This document shows, in pieces, positions 2,404 through 14,605 of a stretch of 64,000 nt of DNA. The notes beneath the pieces were generated by a model. It made no database searches and was not told the DNA's origin. It saw only the letters and a program-made list of their open reading frames with translations. The DNA lies in assembly GCF_026344005.1 (NCBI RefSeq), contig NZ_JAPKNH010000001.1, positions 496,001 through 560,000 of the forward strand, given 5' to 3'. The DNA comes from Kaistia terrae. Its GTDB lineage: Bacteria > Pseudomonadota > Alphaproteobacteria > Rhizobiales > Kaistiaceae. The first letter of the stretch is position 1. The number at the start of each line of letters is the position of its first letter. Both the position numbers and the translations under genes were made by a program.

Positions 2404-2439
2404 GATTAGGTTGATTCTAAATGTGTCGGAGGATGTTCA

Positions 2440-2553
2440 TTGGCCAATCGTAGTGAAAAAAAGCCGTACGAGAGACCCGAACTGGTAAAGCGGGATCGTG
2501 TCGCGATGATCGTCGCCGCAATTTCCGGCTCGGCGCCCCTGCCGCCGCCATAG
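2440..2553 (+). CDS. Candidate RiPP precursor peptide (37 aa, TTG start)
   Basis: A TTG at 2440 follows a strong Shine-Dalgarno GGAGG at 2428-2432 with seven bases between. The frame encodes 37 residues. The leader part reads MANRSEKKPYERPELVKR and contains Y10-x-x-P13-x-L15, the motif that lasso B1 proteins recognise. The C-terminal part is hydrophobic and then AISGSAPLPPP, rich in Ser and Pro. A good rho-independent terminator follows 65 bases later. The ORF is divergent from B1-, B2- and kinase-like genes and resembles the short YxxPxLxKR peptides found beside such genes in rhizobia. No residue can be assigned as cleavage site; Ser29 and Ser31 are possible kinase targets by inference. It was probably overlooked because of its size and rare start codon. 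Confidence 0.65.
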   Translation: MANRSEKKPYERPELVKRDRVAMIVAAISGSAPLPPP

Positions 2554-2617
2554 GCGGACCTTCCATCTCCGTCCGGATAGACCTTCGGGGGCGGAGTTTG
2601 GGGCTGAACATTTAAAG

Positions 2618-2641
2618 GGCGGTGCCAGGCACCGCCTTTTT
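2618..2641 (+). terminator. Rho-independent terminator after the precursor ORF
   Basis: Bases 2618-2625 (GGCGGTGC) pair with 2629-2636 (GCACCGCC, with a three-base loop CAG) and are followed directly by five T at 2637-2641. This is one of only two textbook intrinsic terminators I found in the window. It ends a short transcript that would carry little beyond the 37-residue ORF, which supports that ORF being a real unit. Read-through could still feed the nucleotidyltransferase gene 50 bases downstream. Confidence 0.85.
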
Positions 2642-3814: not shown

Positions 3815-4492
3815 GTGCAGGTCGCCGAGATAGTTTCCTGGCTCGGTCGAACGAGCTTCTTCAATGGCCTGGACAAGGACGACCTGACGCGTCTGGCGCA
3901 GATCGCCCGTGTCTCGACCTATCCGGCCGACACGGTGCTGTTCTCGCAAGGGGACGAATCGGACGGACTTTATTCGGTCGTCGATGGCATCGTCCGTATC
4001 TTCCTGACGGCGGATGACAGCCGCGAGTTGACCATCCAGTTGTTCGAAGAGGGCGAGGTGATCGGCGAAATCGCGCTGATCGACGGCCTGCCGCGCAGTG
4101 CCGGAGCGGCGACCCTGACCGAAACGCGGATGATCTTCGTGCCGCGGCAGTCCTTCCTCAATCTGCTCGACAGTTCGAGCCAGTTGCAGCGCCAGATCAT
4201 TCTCAGTCTCTGCGAGCGGCTTCGACAGACCAACGATCAGGTCAACCGCGCCGTCTTTTCGGATCTGCGGCATCGGTTGCTGGTGCTGCTGCGCCAGCTT
4301 GCGCTGATCCACGGCCGGATCGAGCGCGACATCGCCGTGGTTGAACTCGACCTGACGCAGGGCACGCTGGCACAGATGCTGGGCGCGAGCCGCGAGGCGG
4401 TGAACAAGCAGATACGCGCGCTGATCAAGGAAGGCCGCCTCTCGGTCGATGGCCACCGCATTATCGTGCACCGCTCGACCCGGGACGCCTGA
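3815..4492 (+). CDS. Crp/Fnr-family transcriptional regulator
   Basis: The 225-residue protein starts with GTG at 3815 behind a GGAGGGCAGG stretch. Residues about 15-125 form a cyclic-nucleotide-binding-type beta barrel, including GEVIGEIALIDGLPRSAGAATL, which resembles the phosphate-binding cassette of CRP-like proteins. A C-terminal helix-turn-helix (about 175-210, QGTLAQMLGASREAVNKQI) follows the dimer helix. No cysteine cluster of an FNR iron-sulfur centre is visible, so a small ligand is more likely. It lies 241 bases upstream of the glycogen operon on the same strand and is a plausible, untested regulator of it. Confidence 0.9.
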   Translation: MQVAEIVSWLGRTSFFNGLDKDDLTRLAQIARVSTYPADTVLFSQGDESDGLYSVVDGIVRIFLTADDSRELTIQLFEEGEVIGEIALIDGLPRSAGAATLTETRMIFVPRQSFLNLLDSSSQLQRQIILSLCERLRQTNDQVNRAVFSDLRHRLLVLLRQLALIHGRIERDIAVVELDLTQGTLAQMLGASREAVNKQIRALIKEGRLSVDGHRIIVHRSTRDA

Positions 4493-4733
4493 AAGCCCTG
4501 CGCAACGCATTCCCACTGAAAATGATGACGATTTGGGCAACCGATAGGTTGTCGTCCAATCGAAACGGTCTGTGGCATAAGGTGCCCTGGCAACAAGGTG
4601 CCGACTCCTCCGCGACCCCGCAGCGGAAGAGCGCGGAAATCCGGCATCAATGTTGCATGGAACAAGGTCTGGCCTGAGCGATCGCCAAGGGGCCGGACAC
4701 GAGCAATAGCGGCGAGCAGGACGAGGACATTCG

Positions 4734-7244
4734 ATGCAGGATGCTACCATGTCGATATCGACGGACGACGCCAAGAGCGGCAAGCGTGCGCGCGTATCCG
4801 CCGCCGCGTCGGAAGCCGATGTGGCCGCTGCCCGCGACGCCATCACCGACAAGCTGACCTATGCGGTCGGCAAGAACGCCGTCACGGCAAGCGACCGCGA
4901 CTGGTTTGTCGCCACCGCCTTGGCCGTGCGCGACCGCATGGTCGATCCCTGGATCGCCTCGTCCAAGGCCACCTATGCCGAGGGCCGCAAGCGCGTCTAT
5001 TACCTGTCGCTCGAATTCCTCATCGGCCGCCTGCTGTTCGACGCGATGAACAATCTCGGGCTGACCGATGCGTTTCGCGCCGCGTTGGGGGATCTTGGTG
5101 TCGACATGGATCGCCTCAAGACCGTCGAGCCGGACGCAGCGCTCGGCAATGGCGGTCTCGGCCGTCTCGCCGCCTGCTTCATGGATTCCATGGCTTCGCT
5201 GTCGATCCCGGCCTATGGCTACGGCATCCGCTACGATCACGGCCTGTTCCGCCAGGTGGTGAAGAATGGCTGGCAGCAGGAATATCCCGAGACCTGGCTC
5301 TCCTTCGGCAATCCCTGGCAGTTCGAGCGCCCCGAGGTTGTCTACGACATCCAGTTCGGCGGCTCGGTCGAGGCGATCATGTCGCCGACCGGCGTTGCCC
5401 GCTATGTCTGGCATGCGGCCGAGACGATCGAGGCGGTTCCCTATGACACGCCGATCCCCGGCTGGCGCGGCCGCCACGTCAACACGCTGCGCCTCTGGTC
5501 GGCGCGCGCCGTCGATCCGCTGCGTCTCGACGCCTTCAACTCCGGCGATCACATCGGCGCGCTGGTCGAGCAGGTCCGGGCCGAGGCGATCTCGAAGATC
5601 CTCTATCCGAGCGACGAGAGTGCTGCCGGGCAGGAACTGCGCCTGCGGCAGGAATATTTCTTCGTCTCCGCCTCGCTGCAGGATTTGATCCACCGCCACA
5701 CCCGCACCTATGGCGACATCCGCTCGCTGCCGGACAAGGTGGCGATCCAGCTCAACGACACCCATCCGGCGATTTCCGTCGCCGAACTGATGCGCATCCT
5801 CGTCGACCTGCGCGATATTCCGTGGGACGAGGCGTGGGACATCACCACCCGCACGCTCGGCTACACCAACCACACGCTGCTGCCGGAAGCGCTCGAGACG
5901 TGGCCGGTGCCGCTGCTCGATCGCCTGCTGCCGCGCCAGATGCAGATCATCTACCTGATCAACGCGATCCATCTGGAGAAGGCGAAAAAGCTCGCGGAAT
6001 CGGACGACCGCTTCCTCTCCTCCGTTTCGCTGATCGACGAGAACAATGGCCGGCGCGTGCGCATGGGCCATCTCGCCTTTATTGGCTCGCATTCGATCAA
6101 CGGCGTTTCGGCGCTGCATTCCGACCTGATCAAGCAGACGATCTTCCGGGATCTCGACCAGGTCTATCCCGACCGTCTCAACAACAAGACCAACGGCATC
6201 ACTTTCCGCCGCTGGCTGCATGAGGCCAATCCCGGCCTGACGCGCATCCTCGTCGACACCTGCGGCCCGTCGATTCTCGACAATGCCGATGTGCTGTCGA
6301 AGCTGGAGCCGTTGGCTGGCGATGTCGGCCTGCATGAGGCGTTCGGCGCGGTTCGTCGGGACAACAAGATCGCGCTGGCCAAGCTGATCCGCGACCGGCT
6401 CGACATCCGCGTCAATCCGAATGCGCTGTTCGACGTGCAGATCAAGCGCATCCACGAATACAAGCGCCAGCTGCTCAACATCCTGGAGACGATCGCGCTC
6501 TACCAGGCCATGCGCGCCCAGCCCCACAAGGAGTGGGTGCCGCGGGTAAAAATCTTCGCCGGCAAGGCGGCGGCGAGCTACCATCAGGCCAAGCTGATCA
6601 TCAAGCTCGCCAATGACGTGGCGCAGGTCGTCAACAACGATCCGACCGTGCGCGACCTGCTCAAGGTGGTGTTCCTGCCGAATTACAATGTCAGCCTGGC
6701 CGAGATGATCATCCCGGCCGCCGACTTGTCCGAGCAGATCTCGACTGCCGGCATGGAGGCTTCCGGCACCGGCAACATGAAGCTGGCGCTCAATGGCGCT
6801 CTGACCATCGGCACGCTTGATGGCGCCAATGTCGAGATCAAGGAACGCGTCGGCGACGACAACATCTTCATCTTCGGCCTCACCACCGAGGAAGTCGCTG
6901 CACGCCGCGCCAAGGGCATCGACGCCGCCGACACGATCGCCAGGTCGCGCATGCTGGCCGACGTTCTGGAAGCCATCGATTCAGGCATCTTCTCGCCCGG
7001 CGAGCCAGCCCGCTTCGCCGCGCTGACCACGGCATTGCGCCATCACGACTATTTCCTCGTGACCGCGGATTTCGATTCTTACTACGCAGCGCAACGAGAC
7101 GTTGACGCGCTATGGCTCGACAGAGCAGCATGGTGGAAAGCGAGCCTACTGAACACGGCTCGGGTCGGCTGGTTTTCCTCGGACCGCACCATCGCGGAAT
7201 ATGCCGGGCAAATCTGGGACGTACCCGTCAAGCCGGCTGGATAG
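4734..7244 (+). CDS. glgP: Glycogen/starch/alpha-glucan phosphorylase
   Basis: The enzyme (836 residues) removes glucose-1-phosphate from the non-reducing ends of glycogen using phosphate and PLP. The conserved PLP segment [20 protein letters not shown] contains the Schiff-base lysine at about residue 683. Other family blocks are [14 protein letters not shown] near residue 142 and [12 protein letters not shown]-type sequence ([15 protein letters not shown]) near 580. Two in-frame ATGs exist (4734 and 4749); the first is used because it keeps a GAGGAC motif at a workable distance. It is the first gene of the five-gene glycogen operon, with glgB following after 22 bases. Confidence 0.97.
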
Positions 7245-7266
7245 GCAAAGCATACAGGGAGACGCG

Positions 7267-9459
7267 ATGACGGGTTGGCGGGCGAGCGTATCGGATGTTG
7301 AAGCCCTCATTGCCGCACGCCACGGTGATCCCTTCGCCCTTCTCGGGCCGCATGAAACGGATGACGGCCTCGCCATCCGCGCCTTCGTGCCCCACGCGGA
7401 AACGGTTGCCGTCGAGGATCTCGACGGCAACCGCGTCGCTCCGCTGGAGCGTCGTCCCGGCACGGACTTCTTCGAGGGCCTGATTCCAGGCCACAAGAAG
7501 CGCTTCGGCTACCGTCTCAGGGCGGAAAACCCAGGCGGCGGCTGGACCTTCCACGATCCCTACAGCTTTGCCGGCGTACTCGGCGCCACTGACGACTATC
7601 TGCTGGTCGAGGGCACCCACCGCCAGCTTTACGAAAAGCTCGGCGCGCATCTCCTGCATCATGAAGGCGTTGACGGCGTGCATTTCGCCGTCTGGGCGCC
7701 GGATGCCCTCCGCGTTTCCGTCGTCGGCAATTTCAACGGCTGGGATGGTCGCCGCCACCAGATGCGCAAGCGCGTCGATAGCGGGCTTTGGGAGTTGTTC
7801 GCGCCCGGCTTCGGCGAGGGCGAGATCTACAAATACGAGATCGTCGCCGCCGATGGCATCGTGCAGCCGCTGAAGGCCGACCCGGTCGGCTTTGCCGGCG
7901 AACTGCGCCCGTCGACCGCCTCGGTCGTGGCGCGAACCGACAATTTCACCTGGAACGACGATGCCTTCCTGCGCCAGCGCGGCGAGGGCCAGGCGCGTCG
8001 CCAGCCGATGTCGATCTACGAGGTGCATCTCGGCTCGTGGCAGCGCGGCGAGGGCAATTCGTTCCTCTCCTATGACGAACTGGCCGACCGGCTGATCCCC
8101 TATGCCGTCGAGCTGGGTTTCACCCATCTCGAACTGCTGCCGGTCAGCGAGCATCCGCTCGACGATTCCTGGGGTTACCAGCCGATCGGCCTGTTTGCGC
8201 CGACGCGCCGGCACGGCGAGCCGGCCGGCTTCGCCCGCTTTGTCGATCGCGCCCATCAGGCCGGCCTCGGCATCATCCTCGATTGGGTGCCGGCGCATTT
8301 CCCGACCGACCGGCATGGCCTTGCCCATTTCGACGGCAAGCCGCTCTACGAGCACGCCGATCCGCGCCGTGGTTTCCACCCGGACTGGAACACGGCGATC
8401 TATGATTTCGGTCGTAAGGAAGTGTCGAACTTCCTGGCCGCCAGCGCGCTCTATTGGCTCGACCGATTCCATGTCGATGGCCTGCGCGTCGATGCCGTCG
8501 CCTCGATGCTCTATCTCGATTATTCGCGCAAGGACGGCGAGTGGCTGCCCAATCCGGACGGCAGCAACGACAACAAGGATGCGGTCGCCTTCCTCTCCCG
8601 CGTCAACCAGCTCTGCTATGGCGAGCATCCCGGCACGGTGACCATCGCCGAGGAATCGACCTCCTGGCCCGGCGTCTCGCAGCCGGTGCATGAGGGCGGC
8701 CTCGGCTTCGGCTTCAAGTGGAACATGGGGTGGATGAACGATACGCTCGACTACATGTCGCTCGAGCCGATCCATCGTCGCTATCACCACGACAAGCTGA
8801 CCTTCGGCCTGCTCTACGCCTTCTCCGAAAACTTCGTCCTGCCGCTCAGCCATGACGAGGTCGTCCATGGCAAGCGCTCGATCCTCGGCCGCATGCCGGG
8901 CGACCGCTGGCAGCAATTTGCCAACGTCCGCGCCTATTACGGTTACATGTGGGGCCATCCCGGCAAGAAGCTGCTCTTCATGGGGCAGGAGTTCGGCCAG
9001 CAGAAGGAATGGAACTTCAACCAGAGCCTTGATTGGCATCTGGTCGAAGATCCGATGCATGCTGGCCTCAAGGATTTCGTGCGCGACCTCAATCGCGCCT
9101 ATCGCGGCCATGCCGGCCTGCATGCGCGCGATTGCGAGGGGGAGGGCTTCCGCTGGGTCGTGGCGGATGACAAGGACCAGTCGGTCTTTGCGTTCCTGCG
9201 TTTCGGCGGGCCAGACGACAAGCCGATCCTCGTCGTTTCCAACTTCACGCCTGTCATCCGCGATGGCTACCGCGTCGGCCTGCCCGAAACCGGGCGCTGG
9301 CGCGAAATCCTGAATTCGGACGCTTCCGTCTATGGCGGCTCCGGTGTCGGCAATCTCGGCGCCGTCGAGGCGACGGAGGTGCCGGCGCATGGTTTCCCGG
9401 CTTCGGCCGCGATCGTTCTACCCCCGCTTTCGACGGTCTTCTTCGAATACGAACCGTAA
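7267..9459 (+). CDS. glgB: 1,4-alpha-glucan branching enzyme
   Basis: GlgB transfers alpha-1,4 chains to make alpha-1,6 branches. The 730-residue protein has the N-terminal CBM48 region (about 120-210), the GH13 barrel and a C-terminal beta domain. The nucleophile Asp409 lies in [13 protein letters not shown], the acid Glu462 in [10 protein letters not shown], and the third conserved region is [13 protein letters not shown]. An extra N-terminal module (residues 1-110) is present, as in E. coli-type enzymes. The ATG at 7267 follows GGGAGA; an upstream in-frame ATG at 7201 would overlap glgP. It sits between glgP and glgC in the operon. Confidence 0.97.
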
Positions 9460-9550
9460 GGCGACCTTTGGCGCGGGCGGGCTTGGGTTGAGAAAAACTT
9501 GAGTTGATAAAAACACTGCAGGGCAACGAGCGTTTCGGGAGGGACTAAGG

Positions 9551-10816
9551 ATGGAACGGCCGCAAACCAACGCGCCGCTGGCGCGTAATGCCATGGCCTT
9601 CGTGCTGGCGGGTGGACGCGGCAGCCGATTGATGGAATTGACGGACCGGCGCGCCAAGCCGGCGGTCTATTTCGGCGGCAAGTCGCGCATCATCGATTTT
9701 GCGCTCTCCAATGCCGTCAATTCCGGCATCCGCAAGATCGGCGTCGCCACGCAATACAAGGCGCACAGCCTGATCCGGCATCTGAACCGTGGCTGGAACT
9801 TCTTCCGCCCCGAGCGTAACGAAATCTTCGACGTCTTTCCGGCCAGCCAGCGCGTCTCCGAGGATGCGTGGTATCGCGGCACGGCCGACGCGGTCTATCA
9901 GAACCTCGACATCCTGAAGGACTACGACGCCAAGTATTTCGTCATCCTCGCCGGCGATCACATCTACAAGATGGATTACGAGTTGATGCTGCAGCAGCAC
10001 GTCGACTCCGGCGCCGACGTGACGATCGGCTGCCTGGAAGTGCCGCGCATGGAAGCGACCGGCTTCGGCGTCATGCATGTCGACGATACCGACCGTATTC
10101 TCGAATTTGTCGAGAAGCCGAAGGATCCGCCCGCCATGCCCGGCAAGCCGGACAAGGCGCTGGCCTCGATGGGCATCTATGTCTTCGACACCAAGTTCCT
10201 GATCGAGGAACTGGAGCGCGACGCCAACGATCCCAATTCGAGCCGCGATTTCGGCAAGGACATCATCCCGAACATCGTCAAGAACGGCAAGGCGGTCGCC
10301 CATCACTTCGAGGATTCCTGCGTCCGTTCGAGCCAGGAATCGGTCAGCTACTGGCGTGACGTCGGTACGGTGGACGCCTATTGGGAAGCCAATATCGACC
10401 TGACCAGTATAGTTCCCGATCTTGACCTGTTCGACCGCAACTGGCCGATCTGGACCTATAGCGAGGTCACGCCGCCGGCGAAGTTCGTCCACAACGAGGA
10501 TCACCGTCGCGGCTACGCGCTGTCGTCGCTGGTATCGGGTGGCTGCATCGTCTCTGGCGCCTCGCTGGAGCGGGCGCTGCTGTTCACCGGCGTGCGTTGC
10601 AACTCCTACTCGCATGTCGAGAATGGTGTGATCCTGCCCTATGTCGAGGTCGGTCGCGGCGCCCGCTTGAGCAATGTCGTGGTCGACGCCCGCGTCCAGA
10701 TCCCGGAAGGGCTTGTGGTCGGCGAGGATCCGGAGCTCGACGCCTCGCGCTTCACCCGTTCGGCAAACGGCATCTGCCTGATCACCCAGCCGATGATCGA
10801 CGCGTTGAAGGCTTGA
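9551..10816 (+). CDS. glgC: Glucose-1-phosphate adenylyltransferase
   Basis: The 421-residue enzyme makes ADP-glucose, the donor for GlgA, and is normally the allosterically controlled step of glycogen synthesis. The N-terminal nucleotide-binding loop reads [21 protein letters not shown], and the sugar-phosphate region contains FVEKPKDPP and [12 protein letters not shown]. The C-terminal part has the left-handed beta-helix repeats (about 295-400). The start is the ATG at 9551 after GGGAGGGACTAAGG. A 271-base spacer with hairpins separates it from glgA. Confidence 0.97.
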
Positions 10817-10845
10817 TGTTTCGATACAAGAGACCCTCACCCCAA

Positions 10846-10869
10846 CCCTCTCCCGCAAGCGGGAGAGGG
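10846..10869. repeat. Perfect 11-bp stem-loop downstream of glgC
   Basis: CCCTCTCCCGC at 10846-10856 is the exact reverse complement of GCGGGAGAGGG at 10859-10869, with a two-base loop AA. No T-run follows, so it is not a standard intrinsic terminator. It may protect the 3' end of upstream mRNA or be part of the dispersed repeat family seen at 10917-11040 and 46472-46495. Confidence 0.75.
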
Positions 10870-10916
10870 GCTTGCTTTCCTGGGGCAAGAAACATCTGGG
10901 CCGAATACGACTTTTC

Positions 10917-11040
10917 ACCTCTCCCTGAGGGAGAGGTCGGCTCGAAAAGCCGGGTGAGGGTTTAGGGAACTATCCGGTGAGGCCGTAAACCCTCACCCGC
11001 CGGCCTTTGGCCGTCGACCTCTCCCTCAGGGAGAGGTGAA
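10917..11040. repeat. Inverted pair of CCTCTCCCT-type intergenic repeats
   Basis: 10917-10964 (CACCTCTCCCTGAGGGAGAGG ... CGGGTGAGGGTTT) and 10988-11040 (AACCCTCACCC ... CCTCTCCCTCAGGGAGAGGTG, in two blocks) are inverted copies of one element, and each contains its own stem-loop. A half-copy recurs at 34414-34440 (CACCTCTCTCTCAGGGAGAGGTG). The pair sits inside the glycogen operon between glgC and glgA, where it could alter read-through or mRNA decay; that effect is inferred. Confidence 0.8.
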
Positions 11041-11087
11041 GAAGGCGGTTCAAAGTAGATGGATTTTGCTCTAGAGGCCGATTGTTG

Positions 11088-12542
11088 ATGACCCTGAAAA
11101 TCCTCGCCGTCGTTTCCGAGATCTATCCGCTGGTGAAGACCGGCGGACTGGCTGATGTCGCCGGTGCGCTTCCGGGCGCGCTGGTGCCGGAGGATGTCGC
11201 GGTGACGACGCTGGTGCCCGGCTATCCGGCCGTGCTGGCGGCGCTGAAGAAGCCGCAGGTCGTTCATACCTTCGCGGGCCTGTTCGGCCATGACGCGCGG
11301 CTCTTGAAGGCCAATGTCAGCGGTCTCGACCTTCTCGTGCTGGATGCGCCGCATCTCTTCAACCGGCCGGGCAATCCTTACGTCGACGCCGACGGCAAGG
11401 ACTGGATCGACAACCCGCTCCGCTTCGCGGCGCTTTCGCGGGTCGCTGCTGAAATCGGCCAGGGCCTTGTGCCGGCGCTGACGCCGGACGTGATCCACGC
11501 GCATGACTGGCAGACCGGGCTGACCGCCGCCTATCTGCGCTATTCCGGCCGTCCCGCCGTGCCGACGGTGATGACCGTCCACAACATGGCATTCCAGGGC
11601 CAGTATGGCCGCGACCTGTTGCCCGCGCTCGGGCTTCCGGCGCGCGCCTATGCCATCGACGGGGTCGAATATTACGGCACGATCGGCTTCCTGAAGGCGG
11701 GCCTGCAGCTTTCCGACCGCATCACCACGGTATCGCCGACCTATGCGACCGAGATCCGTACCGCCGAGGGCGGCATGGGGCTCGATGGCTTACTGCGTAG
11801 TCGCGGCAATGCCGTCTCCGGCATTCTGAACGGCATCGATACCGGCGTCTGGAATCCCGCCACCGACGCCCGGATCGCCGCGCCCTTCGAACTTTCGCGC
11901 CTCGCCGGTCGCGCCGCAAACAAGAAGGCGCTGCAGCAGAGGCTGGGCCTCGACGTCGATCCGAATGCGCTGATCTTCGGCGTCGTCAGCCGGTTGAGTT
12001 GGCAGAAGGGCCTCGATCTCCTGCTCGAACGGCTGCCGGCGCTGCTCGCCGCCGGCGGGCAATTGGCGCTGCTCGGTTCCGGCGAGATGTCGCTCGCCAA
12101 TGGTTTTGCCGGCGCCACCACCCTGCACAAGGGCCGCGTCGGCATGGTCAATGGCTATGACGAGGGCTTGGCCCATCTGATCCAGGCGGGCTCCGACGTC
12201 ATTCTGGTGCCATCGCGCTTCGAGCCCTGCGGCCTGACCCAGCTTTGCGCGCTGCGCTATGGCGCGCTGCCGCTTGTCGCCCGCGTCGGTGGGCTGGCCG
12301 ATACCGTCATCGATGCCAACGAGGTGGCGCTCGCCGCCGGCGTCGGCACCGGCGTCCAGTTCAGCCCGGTCTCCGGCGATGCGCTGGAGGCGGCGATCTG
12401 GCGTACCGCCGATCTCTGGCGCGACCGCCCAACCTGGAAGAAGCTGCAGAAGAACGCGATGAAGACCGATGTCTCCTGGACCCGGCCGGCCGCTGCCTAT
12501 GCCCGGCTCTACCGCGAGCTGGTTGCCGGACGCGCGGGATGA
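11088..12542 (+). CDS. glgA: Glycogen synthase (ADP-glucose)
   Basis: GlgA extends glycogen from ADP-glucose (GT5 family). The 484-residue protein begins [24 protein letters not shown], with the ADP-glucose-binding KTGGL motif at about residues 16-20. The C-terminal GT-B half carries [12 protein letters not shown] and [21 protein letters not shown] two codons upstream (11082) is an alternative start. The final stop overlaps the glgX start by four bases, so the two are coupled. Confidence 0.97.
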
Positions 12543-14605
12543 CCGTCAGTGCGCCCGTGAGGGAAGGTTCGCCGGAGCCGCTCGGCGTCACGCCGACAGA
12601 GACCGGCGTCAACGTCGCCGTCTATTCCGCCCACGCCGAAGCGATCGACTTCTGCCTCTTCGACGCAACTGGGCAGGTCGAACTGCGCCGCGTCCGCCTG
12701 CCAGAGCGCTCGGGCGACGTCTTTCACGGCCACATTGACGGGATTCGCCCTGGCGACCGCTATGGTCTGCGTGCCGAAGGACCATGGCGACCGGAGGCCG
12801 GCCAACGCTTCAATGGAGCAAAACTACTCGTCGATCCGTATGCGCTGGCGCTGGACCGGGCCTTTGTGCTCGACGACACGATGTTCGATGCCCGCCGGCT
12901 GGGCGCGGCTGAGGACGCGCGCGACAGCGCCGCCGTAGTGCCGAAGGCGATCGTCACGGCCGCCGCCACGCCCGCACCGCGCTTGCACCCGCCGATAGCC
13001 TGGGACCGGCAGGTCATCTACGAACTGCATGTGCGCGGCTTTTCAAAACTCAATCCGGCCGTGCCGGAGGCCATCCGCGGCACCTTCGCTGGCCTCGGCC
13101 ATCCGGCCTCGATCGCGCATCTGAAGCAGTTGGGCATCACGACGGTAGAGCTGTTGCCCATCGCGGCCTGGCTCGACGAGCGCCATCTGCCGCCGCTCGG
13201 GCTCACCAATTATTGGGGCTACAACCCGATCGCCTGGATGACGCCCGACCCGCGTCTCGCGCCGGGCGGATTTGTCGAAGTGGCGGACTGCGTCGCCGCT
13301 CTGCATCAGGCCGGCATTGCCGTCATCCTCGACGTCGTCTTCAACCATTCCGGCGAGAGCGATCACCTCGGCCCGACCGTCTCGATGCGCGGCCTCGACA
13401 ACGCGACCTACTACCGTCTCGAGCAGGGCGACCCATCCGGCTATGTCAACGATGCGGGCACCGGCAACATCCTCGCCATGGACCGACCGCCTGTCATCCG
13501 CCTGGTCATGGATGCGCTCCGAACCTGGGTCGAACGCACCGGCGTCGATGGCTTCCGCTTCGACCTGGCCACCACCCTGGCTCGCCGGGTTGAGGGTTTC
13601 GATCCGGCCGCGCCCTTCCTCGCCGCGATCGAGCAGGACCCGCTGCTGCGCGAACTGATCCTGATCGCCGAGCCATGGGACATCGGACCGGGCGGCTATC
13701 AGCTCGGCAATTTCCCGCCTGCCTGGGGTGAGTGGAACGACCGTTACCGCGATACGGTGCGACGCTTCTTTCGGGGCGATGCCGGCATGATCGGCGATCT
13801 CGCCACGCGCCTCGCCGGCTCGTCCGATATCTTTACGCATCGCTACCGGAAGGTTAACAGAAGCATCAACTTCATCACCGCCCATGACGGCTTCACGCTC
13901 GCCGATCTGGTCGCCTATGAGCACAAGCACAACGGCGCCAATGGCGAGCAAAACCGCGACGGCACCGACGACAACAAGTCCTGGAACAATGGCGTCGAGG
14001 GCGAGACGTCCGATCCCGCCATCCTCGCGCGCCGCCGCGCCGATATCCGCGCGCTGCTGATGACGCTGGTCTTCTCGCGCGGCACGCCGATGTTGACCAT
14101 GGGCGACGAACTCGGCCGCAGCCAGCAGGGCAACAACAACGCCTATGCGCAGGACAATCCAATCGCCTGGCTAGATTGGTCGAAGATCGATCAGGATCTC
14201 ATTGATTTCACAAAACAATTGCTGTCGTTGCGTGCGGCTCATCCGGCGCTGCGTGATCCGCGTCCCCTGACCGGGAAAGCACTTCCAGACAGTGGCGAGC
14301 CGGATGTCGGCTGGTTTGGCCCGAATGGCATGCCGCTCGACGAAGCCGGCTGGCACGCACGGGATGGCCGGACGCTGGTTGCCGTCCTTGCGGTTCGGAT
14401 ACCGCAAGGTCCGATCGAGCGCGTCTGTATCGCGCTCCATGGCGGCACTACTTCGATCGACCTGAAACTGCCGCCGCTTGACGGCGCGGCTCCATGGCGG
14501 CTCGCTGCTTCGTCCTTGCCGCCCGAGGATGGCGGGGCGGCAGGTTACGGCTCGAGCCGGTCGCTCAGGGTGGCCCCGCGCTCGGCATTGCTCTTCCTCG
14601 GCTAG
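12539..14605 (+). CDS. glgX: Glycogen debranching enzyme
   Basis: GlgX hydrolyses alpha-1,6 branches in the phosphorylase-limit dextrin. The 688-residue protein has an N-terminal CBM48 (about 1-110) and a GH13 barrel with [23 protein letters not shown] (nucleophile Asp), LIAEPWDIG (acid Glu) and [14 protein letters not shown]. The ATG overlaps the glgA stop (ATGA). It is the last gene of the operon; no clear terminator follows. Together with glgP it supplies breakdown while glgC, glgA and glgB supply synthesis. Confidence 0.96.

Follow-up and report, generated by a model that had tools for sequence, protein, structure and literature searches.

The closest described systems are the linear polyphosphorylated peptides (LPPs) of the Bacillota and the phosphorylated lasso peptides. 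Phosphorylation of serine in LPPs has been demonstrated experimentally (PMC13381572), and the main text of that paper, which calls LPPs restricted to Bacillota, makes no mention of Alphaproteobacteria, Pseudomonadota, Proteobacteria or names in Rhizob-. As described there, an LPP cluster has one to three precursors (with a 45-residue core in the case studied) and the leader consensus YxxPxVLxHQxIxFETxxS, and it combines a discrete RiPP recognition element (RRE), an HprK-like kinase and an NTP transferase with an SpI-like leader peptidase and an MsbA-like exporter; deletion of lppN was without effect in the heterologous host. The phosphorylated lasso systems, in the accounts of Bsf (PMC10368454) and of paeninodin and pseudomycoidin (PMC9266682), also have B1, B2, an HprK-type kinase and a nucleotidyltransferase. 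The Bsf kinase acts on Ser-3 of BsfA and is sped by B1, and Ile or Val at position -2 is described for phosphorylated lasso precursors (PMC10368454). The paeninodin kinase acts on the C-terminal serine, and in pseudomycoidin, where the kinase phosphorylates a serine, addition of a hexose depends on the nucleotidyltransferase gene (PMC9266682).

We found no description of an alphaproteobacterial system of this kind in one library of open-access papers; some rhizobial entries may already carry the name putative RiPP precursor. Here we analyze a locus near one end of a window of 64,000 nucleotides of Kaistia terrae DNA, the window being the whole stretch examined. The first-pass annotation had proposed that a short, unmarked frame in this window encodes a RiPP precursor flanked by B1-, B2- and HprK-like genes. 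These neighbors hold up against curated families, B1 and B2 above cut-off and the HprK-like gene weakly (Table 1). The annotation missed the nucleotidyltransferase gene on the other side, the absence of a cyclase and the membership of the frame among five dispersed precursors in the genome.

Table 1. Features of the candidate precursor locus, in window coordinates
Feature	Coordinates	Strand	Evidence
HprK-like peptide kinase, 335 aa	572..1579	-	TIGR04352, 25.6 bits (cut-off 200)
B2, lasso-type leader peptidase, 143 aa	1579..2010	-	NF033537, 52.8 bits (cut-off 33); PF13471 above cut-off
B1, PqqD-like RiPP recognition element, 97 aa	2007..2300	-	PF05402, 38.5 bits (cut-off 23.4)
GGAGG ribosome-binding site	2428..2432	+	7 nt 5' of the TTG; read from sequence
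Candidate precursor peptide ORF, 37 aa	2440..2553	+	Sequence, ORF list, register of 61 other precursors
Terminator-like hairpin, 12-pair stem, 3-nt loop, ending in U	2614..2640	+	Folding
NTP_transf_5 nucleotidyltransferase, 352 aa	2692..3750	+	PF14907, 94.5 bits (cut-off 31.2)

The PqqD, B2 and HprK-like genes run divergently from the precursor and overlap by a few bases, the start of the B2 gene lying over the end of the PqqD gene and the start of the HprK-like gene over the end of the B2 gene. Among 14 aligned B2 homologues, C75 and H112 are invariant; McjB has a third catalytic residue, an aspartate, which was not evident in this alignment, and the B2 profile gave no matches to PDB sequences. 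In the HprK-like kinase, H134, G154-x-G156-K157 and D174-D175 are invariant in 20/20 homologues, an H/GxGK/DD motif being described for peptide kinases (PMC10368454, PMC9266682). The best named kinase family was HprK_rel_A (TIGR04352), which all 20 homologues matched at E <= 0.001 and whose curated cut-off the window kinase misses. A PEPCK/HprK fold is predicted for this protein: its model (pLDDT 89.9) had its best matches among PEP carboxykinases and also matched HPr kinase 1ko7 with an E value of 8e-7, at moderate TM-scores of 0.25-0.49 by query length. Residues D139, D141 and E188 of the nucleotidyltransferase are invariant in 21 homologues, and matches of its model to the PDB were weak (best E 0.03; ANT(2''), LnuA and FKRP at 0.1-0.25).

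Among the ten ORFs flanking the module we saw no dedicated exporter (they include an ABC ATPase ~11 kb off beside an Fe-S biosynthesis gene and one MFS-acyltransferase fusion), and a scan of the same ORFs returned no peptidase family; where LPP clusters have an SpI-like leader peptidase, the module has B2. Two copies of a repeat in inverted orientation, TCTGGACCCTCCTTCGAGGC...ATCATCCTGAGGTGC, were noticed by eye at 365-410 and 505-555, on either side of the interval separating the TetR and kinase genes. On the other side, the module adjoins the gene of a Crp/FNR-like regulator, after which come glycogen genes (3815-14605; phosphorylase, GlgB and GlgC were assigned by Pfam and the GlgA and GlgX genes by eye), and a Crp/FNR-like regulator adjoins the module in five relatives too.

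The precursor frame, which begins at a TTG (2440-2442) and runs for 37 codons and a stop, translates as MANRSEKKPYERPELVKRDRVAMIVAAISGSAPLPPP. Both the sequence and the ORF list agree with the first-pass account of a short TTG frame preceded by GGAGG at seven bases, and the leader motif Y10-x-x-P13-x-L15 and the C-terminal SGSAPLPPP lie where they had been placed. Read in the register of the family, the peptide is predicted to divide into a leader, M1-A26, and a core, A27-P37 (AISGSAPLPPP), with YxxPxL at -17 to -12 and Ser29 at core position 3. The ORF itself had no match in NCBIfam or Pfam. Downstream, the claim of an intrinsic terminator stands as regards the hairpin, which at -19.2 kcal/mol (z -4.05) was equaled in stability by 0/200 shuffles and which has a counterpart in the same place in both relatives folded (z -3.31 and -2.50), but a consensus scanner run over 2250-2760 reported neither promoter nor terminator, probably because the T run is absorbed by the stem.

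The PqqD gene occurs in 8 of 28 family genomes, namely that of the window, five others from its genus (G014, G017, G018, G022 and G024) and G006 and G027; B2, kinase and nucleotidyltransferase genes accompany it in all seven other loci. When the frame was sought beside the module of the five same-genus relatives, four (G014, G017, G018 and G022) were found to encode MKKTYEKPxLLKRxRVAMIVAAxSGxxPPPP or close to it in the same place, keeping both frame and YxxP, and the proposed precursor role is thereby well supported. In the fifth, G024, what remains beside the module is a decayed relic that runs into a long frame (E 0.023). Among the 10 pairs computed over the 20 leader codons, the differences at codon positions 1, 2 and 3 numbered 2, 1 and 11 between the window and G017 and 0, 0 and 6 between G017 and G018, and the most distant pair, the window and G014, differed by 5 synonymous and 6 non-synonymous codons. 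Differences falling mainly at third positions are the mark of a translated frame, and we reject a chance ORF on account of the conserved frame. Serine is present at core position 3 in the window precursor and in all four orthologues.

It is conceivable but unlikely that the family is real and the window copy a decaying or mis-started gene that is not expressed. This copy is the only one of 62 catalogued precursors to be read with TTG, the other 61 being read with ATG; the codon aligned with the ATG of its relatives is GAA, so that translation would have to begin at the TTG that follows the GGAGG, and the orthologue in G024 has decayed. However, the GGAGG is ideally spaced, leader and core are intact, the substitution pattern is synonymous and the hairpin has been kept. 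The window copy may nonetheless be drifting, like the G024 orthologue.

The window precursor is one member of a wider family. With a profile (A1) made from 13 precursors of the genomes searched at the outset, 62 precursors were recovered in the eight module-bearing genomes: 16 in G018, 11 in G014, 10 in G017, eight in G022, six in G024, five in the own genome and three each in G006 and G027. The 20 module-less genomes gave three single matches at chance level (G010, E 0.011; G005, 0.035; G015, 0.049). At E <= 0.01, precursors are therefore present in 8/8 module genomes and 0/20 others (Fisher 3e-7, with kinship ignored). The catalogue leaves out the G024 relic (L025), the chance-level L087 (G015) and L088 (G010) and the G005 match. 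Only 10 of the 62 lie beside the module (one each in the own genome, G014, G017, G018 and G022, three in G027 and two in G006), and the remaining 52 are on other contigs or at least ~380 kb off on the same contig, a remote count in which distances within G022, a fragmented MAG, are not meaningful.

Many of the remote precursors share one conserved array site, between an FGGY-like kinase gene and an adenine-deaminase-like gene (both named by eye), where G014 and G017 have five, G018 and G022 four, G024 six and the own genome one. The deaminase gene is found in 12 of 14 genus genomes, six of them module-less: in one of these, G020, the same two neighbors stand 344 bases apart with no precursor between them, and in the other five there was neither a kinase gene within the 1.5 kb examined nor a precursor. 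In G024, the module (1.89 Mb) and the six-precursor array (0.62 Mb) lie ~1.27 Mb apart on the same main contig, so maturation, if there is any, must be in trans. As side observations, a remote Kaistia type (L069, L082 and L086, at about 3.07, 4.13 and 3.06 kb) differs from the array cores in that its core, SPVIWxPS/T, shows unusual conservation across three genomes, and in the own genome a remote precursor, L020:7371 (-), is preceded by a tandem run of four genes that by eye are outer-membrane-protein-like.

Because the profiles were built from genomes first searched, it is the absence at the genus level and a test at the order level that carry weight. For the latter we used a second profile, A2, hand-picked as 46 of the 62 precursors with close copies dropped. 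Of 297 order genomes, 11 contained precursors (A2, E <= 1e-3) and 19 contained B2 (NF033537); all 11 precursor genomes are among the 19, against 0/278 without B2 (Fisher 2e-15, the genomes not being independent). When the 1.5-kb flanks of all 25 B2 genes were examined, an HprK-like gene was present at 13, a cyclase-like gene at 10 and neither at two; one cyclase-side B2 (G250) had an additional weak HprK match. An HprK-side B2 is present in all 11 precursor genomes and in two more: G182, whose precursors have YVKA or YAKA in place of YxxP and were missed by the A2 search, and G102, where the module is present and no precursor was found. The five genomes of genus g69 each contain a lasso B2 accompanied by a cyclase and, 12-29 kb away, a second B2 of the HprK-side type. 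This pairing of a lasso cluster that has a cyclase with a distinct module that has none is seen in Mesorhizobium genomes (L153, 3547-5822 and 14889-17671), much as LPP and lasso clusters occur in Bacillota. In a B2 tree, 17 HprK-side and 9 cyclase-side proteins separate at 100/99 support, with G037, G249 and G105 excluded and G155 replaced for wrong or partial frames, with which the split is not clean. Outside the order, a search of 367 class genomes returned no precursor beyond Kaistia terrae's own.

When GTDB contigs were scanned with the B2 alignment, 91 relatives were recovered, of which the best 80 were analyzed: 64 are from Mesorhizobium and the rest from Kaistia, Aquibium, Ancylobacter, Hoeflea, unnamed Hyphomicrobiales and, in a few cases, MAGs from other groups. 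A PqqD and an HprK-like gene were found in all 80 of these loci and a nucleotidyltransferase gene in 78, and a lasso cyclase in none within the locus DNA examined (ten loci < 14 kb), a zero that is conditional on the scan pattern, since RRCLR[EQ]G[LI]L[AG] favors this type of B2. Precursors lay near the module in 37/80 loci at E < 1e-3, and in 43 at E < 1, some of these spurious; proximity in only 37 fits action in trans but also fits a weak model. A tblastn search of plasmids with a Mesorhizobium B2 gave no matches.

Across the 62 precursors the leaders are conserved and the cores variable. In the fixed register, cores are 7-15 residues long, the residue before the core is alanine in 61/62, and position -2 is occupied by Ala (44), Val (9) or Thr (9). 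Serine occurs in 60/62 cores, its first position being 5 in 32, 3 in nine, 6 in seven, 4 in six, 2 in five and 1 in one. Of 59 distinct cores, 57 contain serine (mean of 20,000 shuffles 43.9, maximum 53), and serine followed by Gly, Asn or Asp was observed in 40 compared with a shuffle average of 12.9 and a maximum of 24. Both Ser-less cores come from G006, all three of whose cores contain Thr-Gly. Among the named relatives, 47/51 cores have serine, and the four that do not are from Aquibium and share a conserved Val/Ile-Thr, in which threonine may be the acceptor. On the Aquibium locus L232 (8567-9379), five precursor-like ORFs, four with Ser-less cores, are opposite to the module strand. At least two cysteines are present in 21/62 cores. 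Against named families, the 46 A2 precursors had weak matches to DUF5972 (27/46, best E 0.0014) and lasso_cyano (13/46, best E 0.016).

Two other readings bear on these peptides as a family. The leader-bearing peptides might act without any modification of the core, for instance as intracellular ligands or regulators of B1 or the kinase, which would suit the lack of a dedicated exporter among the ten ORFs near the module and the variability of the cores; yet the leader-core boundary is conserved, B2 is always present, the catalytic residues have been kept and serine is enriched in the cores, and we regard this reading as improbable. We reject as scarcely credible a true lasso peptide precursor with its cyclase encoded elsewhere, for although B1, B2 and the leader are of lasso type and the leader matches the lasso register, no cyclase (NF033535) was found at E <= 1e-5 in the Kaistia terrae genome (a 37-contig draft with a completeness of 99.35%), nor was one present in the DNA examined at the 80 loci above, none of the 62 cores combines Gly1 (the only first residue scored) with Asp or Glu at 7-9, the window core lacks both Asp and Glu, and the two kinds of B2 separate in the tree.

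The locus compares with both known systems. In common with LPPs as described in PMC13381572, it has a discrete RRE, an HprK-like kinase, an NTP transferase, a YxxP leader, no macrolactam cyclase and a product that is linear, here by prediction; of the LPP leader consensus, YxxP alone is shared. The family here differs in that its cores are shorter and a genome can have as many as 16 precursors, most of them remote from the module. The BsfA leader has YxxPxL at -17 to -12 (PMC10368454), the register found here, its acceptor Ser-3 parallels Ser-3 of the window core, and we counted the Ala, Val or Thr at -2 as a match to the description of BsfA. In contrast to the phosphorylated lasso systems as described, with their cyclase C and ring residues, neither was found here, and only 4/62 cores end in serine, the residue on which the paeninodin kinase acts. 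The overall layout has a further parallel. Prochlorosin-type lanthipeptides share with the family here a one-enzyme, many-precursor layout, in which a single maturation enzyme set serves numerous dispersed precursors whose leaders are conserved and whose cores vary, their enzymes and chemistry being unrelated.

Taken together, these data suggest that the window ORF is probably the leader-core precursor of a linear, Ser-phosphorylated, lasso-related RiPP and that one module serves dispersed precursors. Set beside the observed gene set, its conservation, the genome-level co-occurrence and the cyclase search, homology suggests how binding, phosphorylation, cleavage and maturation in trans would proceed. 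PqqD (B1) would bind YxxPxL of the leader and present the core to the kinase and then to B2. The HprK-like kinase would phosphorylate the conserved core serine (Ser29, core position 3 here), perhaps repeatedly, and B2 would cut after A26 and release the phosphorylated linear core, on which the nucleotidyltransferase may then decorate the phosphate. With no cyclase the product would stay linear, at about AISGSAPLPPP plus phosphate, and a phosphorylated product would fit the kinase gene. The remote precursors carry the same leader and so could be served by one module, which would mature four further precursors of the own genome in trans and up to 16 in one relative. Several points count against the preferred reading: the serine position wanders, where BsfK and LppK are described with one fixed position in the published accounts; some cores have no serine; the kinase is far below the TIGR04352 cut-off; the start is a TTG; no exporter was seen among the ten ORFs; and G102 has a module with no precursor found.

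We put at about even chances the broader proposal of a hub-and-spoke RiPP class, in which one RRE/B2/HprK/nucleotidyltransferase locus and scattered precursors would yield a library of linear phosphopeptides, possibly sugar- or nucleotide-bearing, with cores that vary except for an acceptor serine that is movable or replaced by threonine. Most such precursors are located at a distance from all biosynthetic genes and are missed by cluster-based mining. In Kaistia and the rhizobia, the tolerance of the kinase and B2 for many cores, the addition made by the nucleotidyltransferase and the role of the peptides can be tested. If true, this reading would mean that linear phosphorylated RiPPs occur in Hyphomicrobiales as well as in Bacillota, that their leader is cut there by a lasso peptidase B2 without ring formation, and that a lasso-type recognition system is used in trans for many dispersed precursors.
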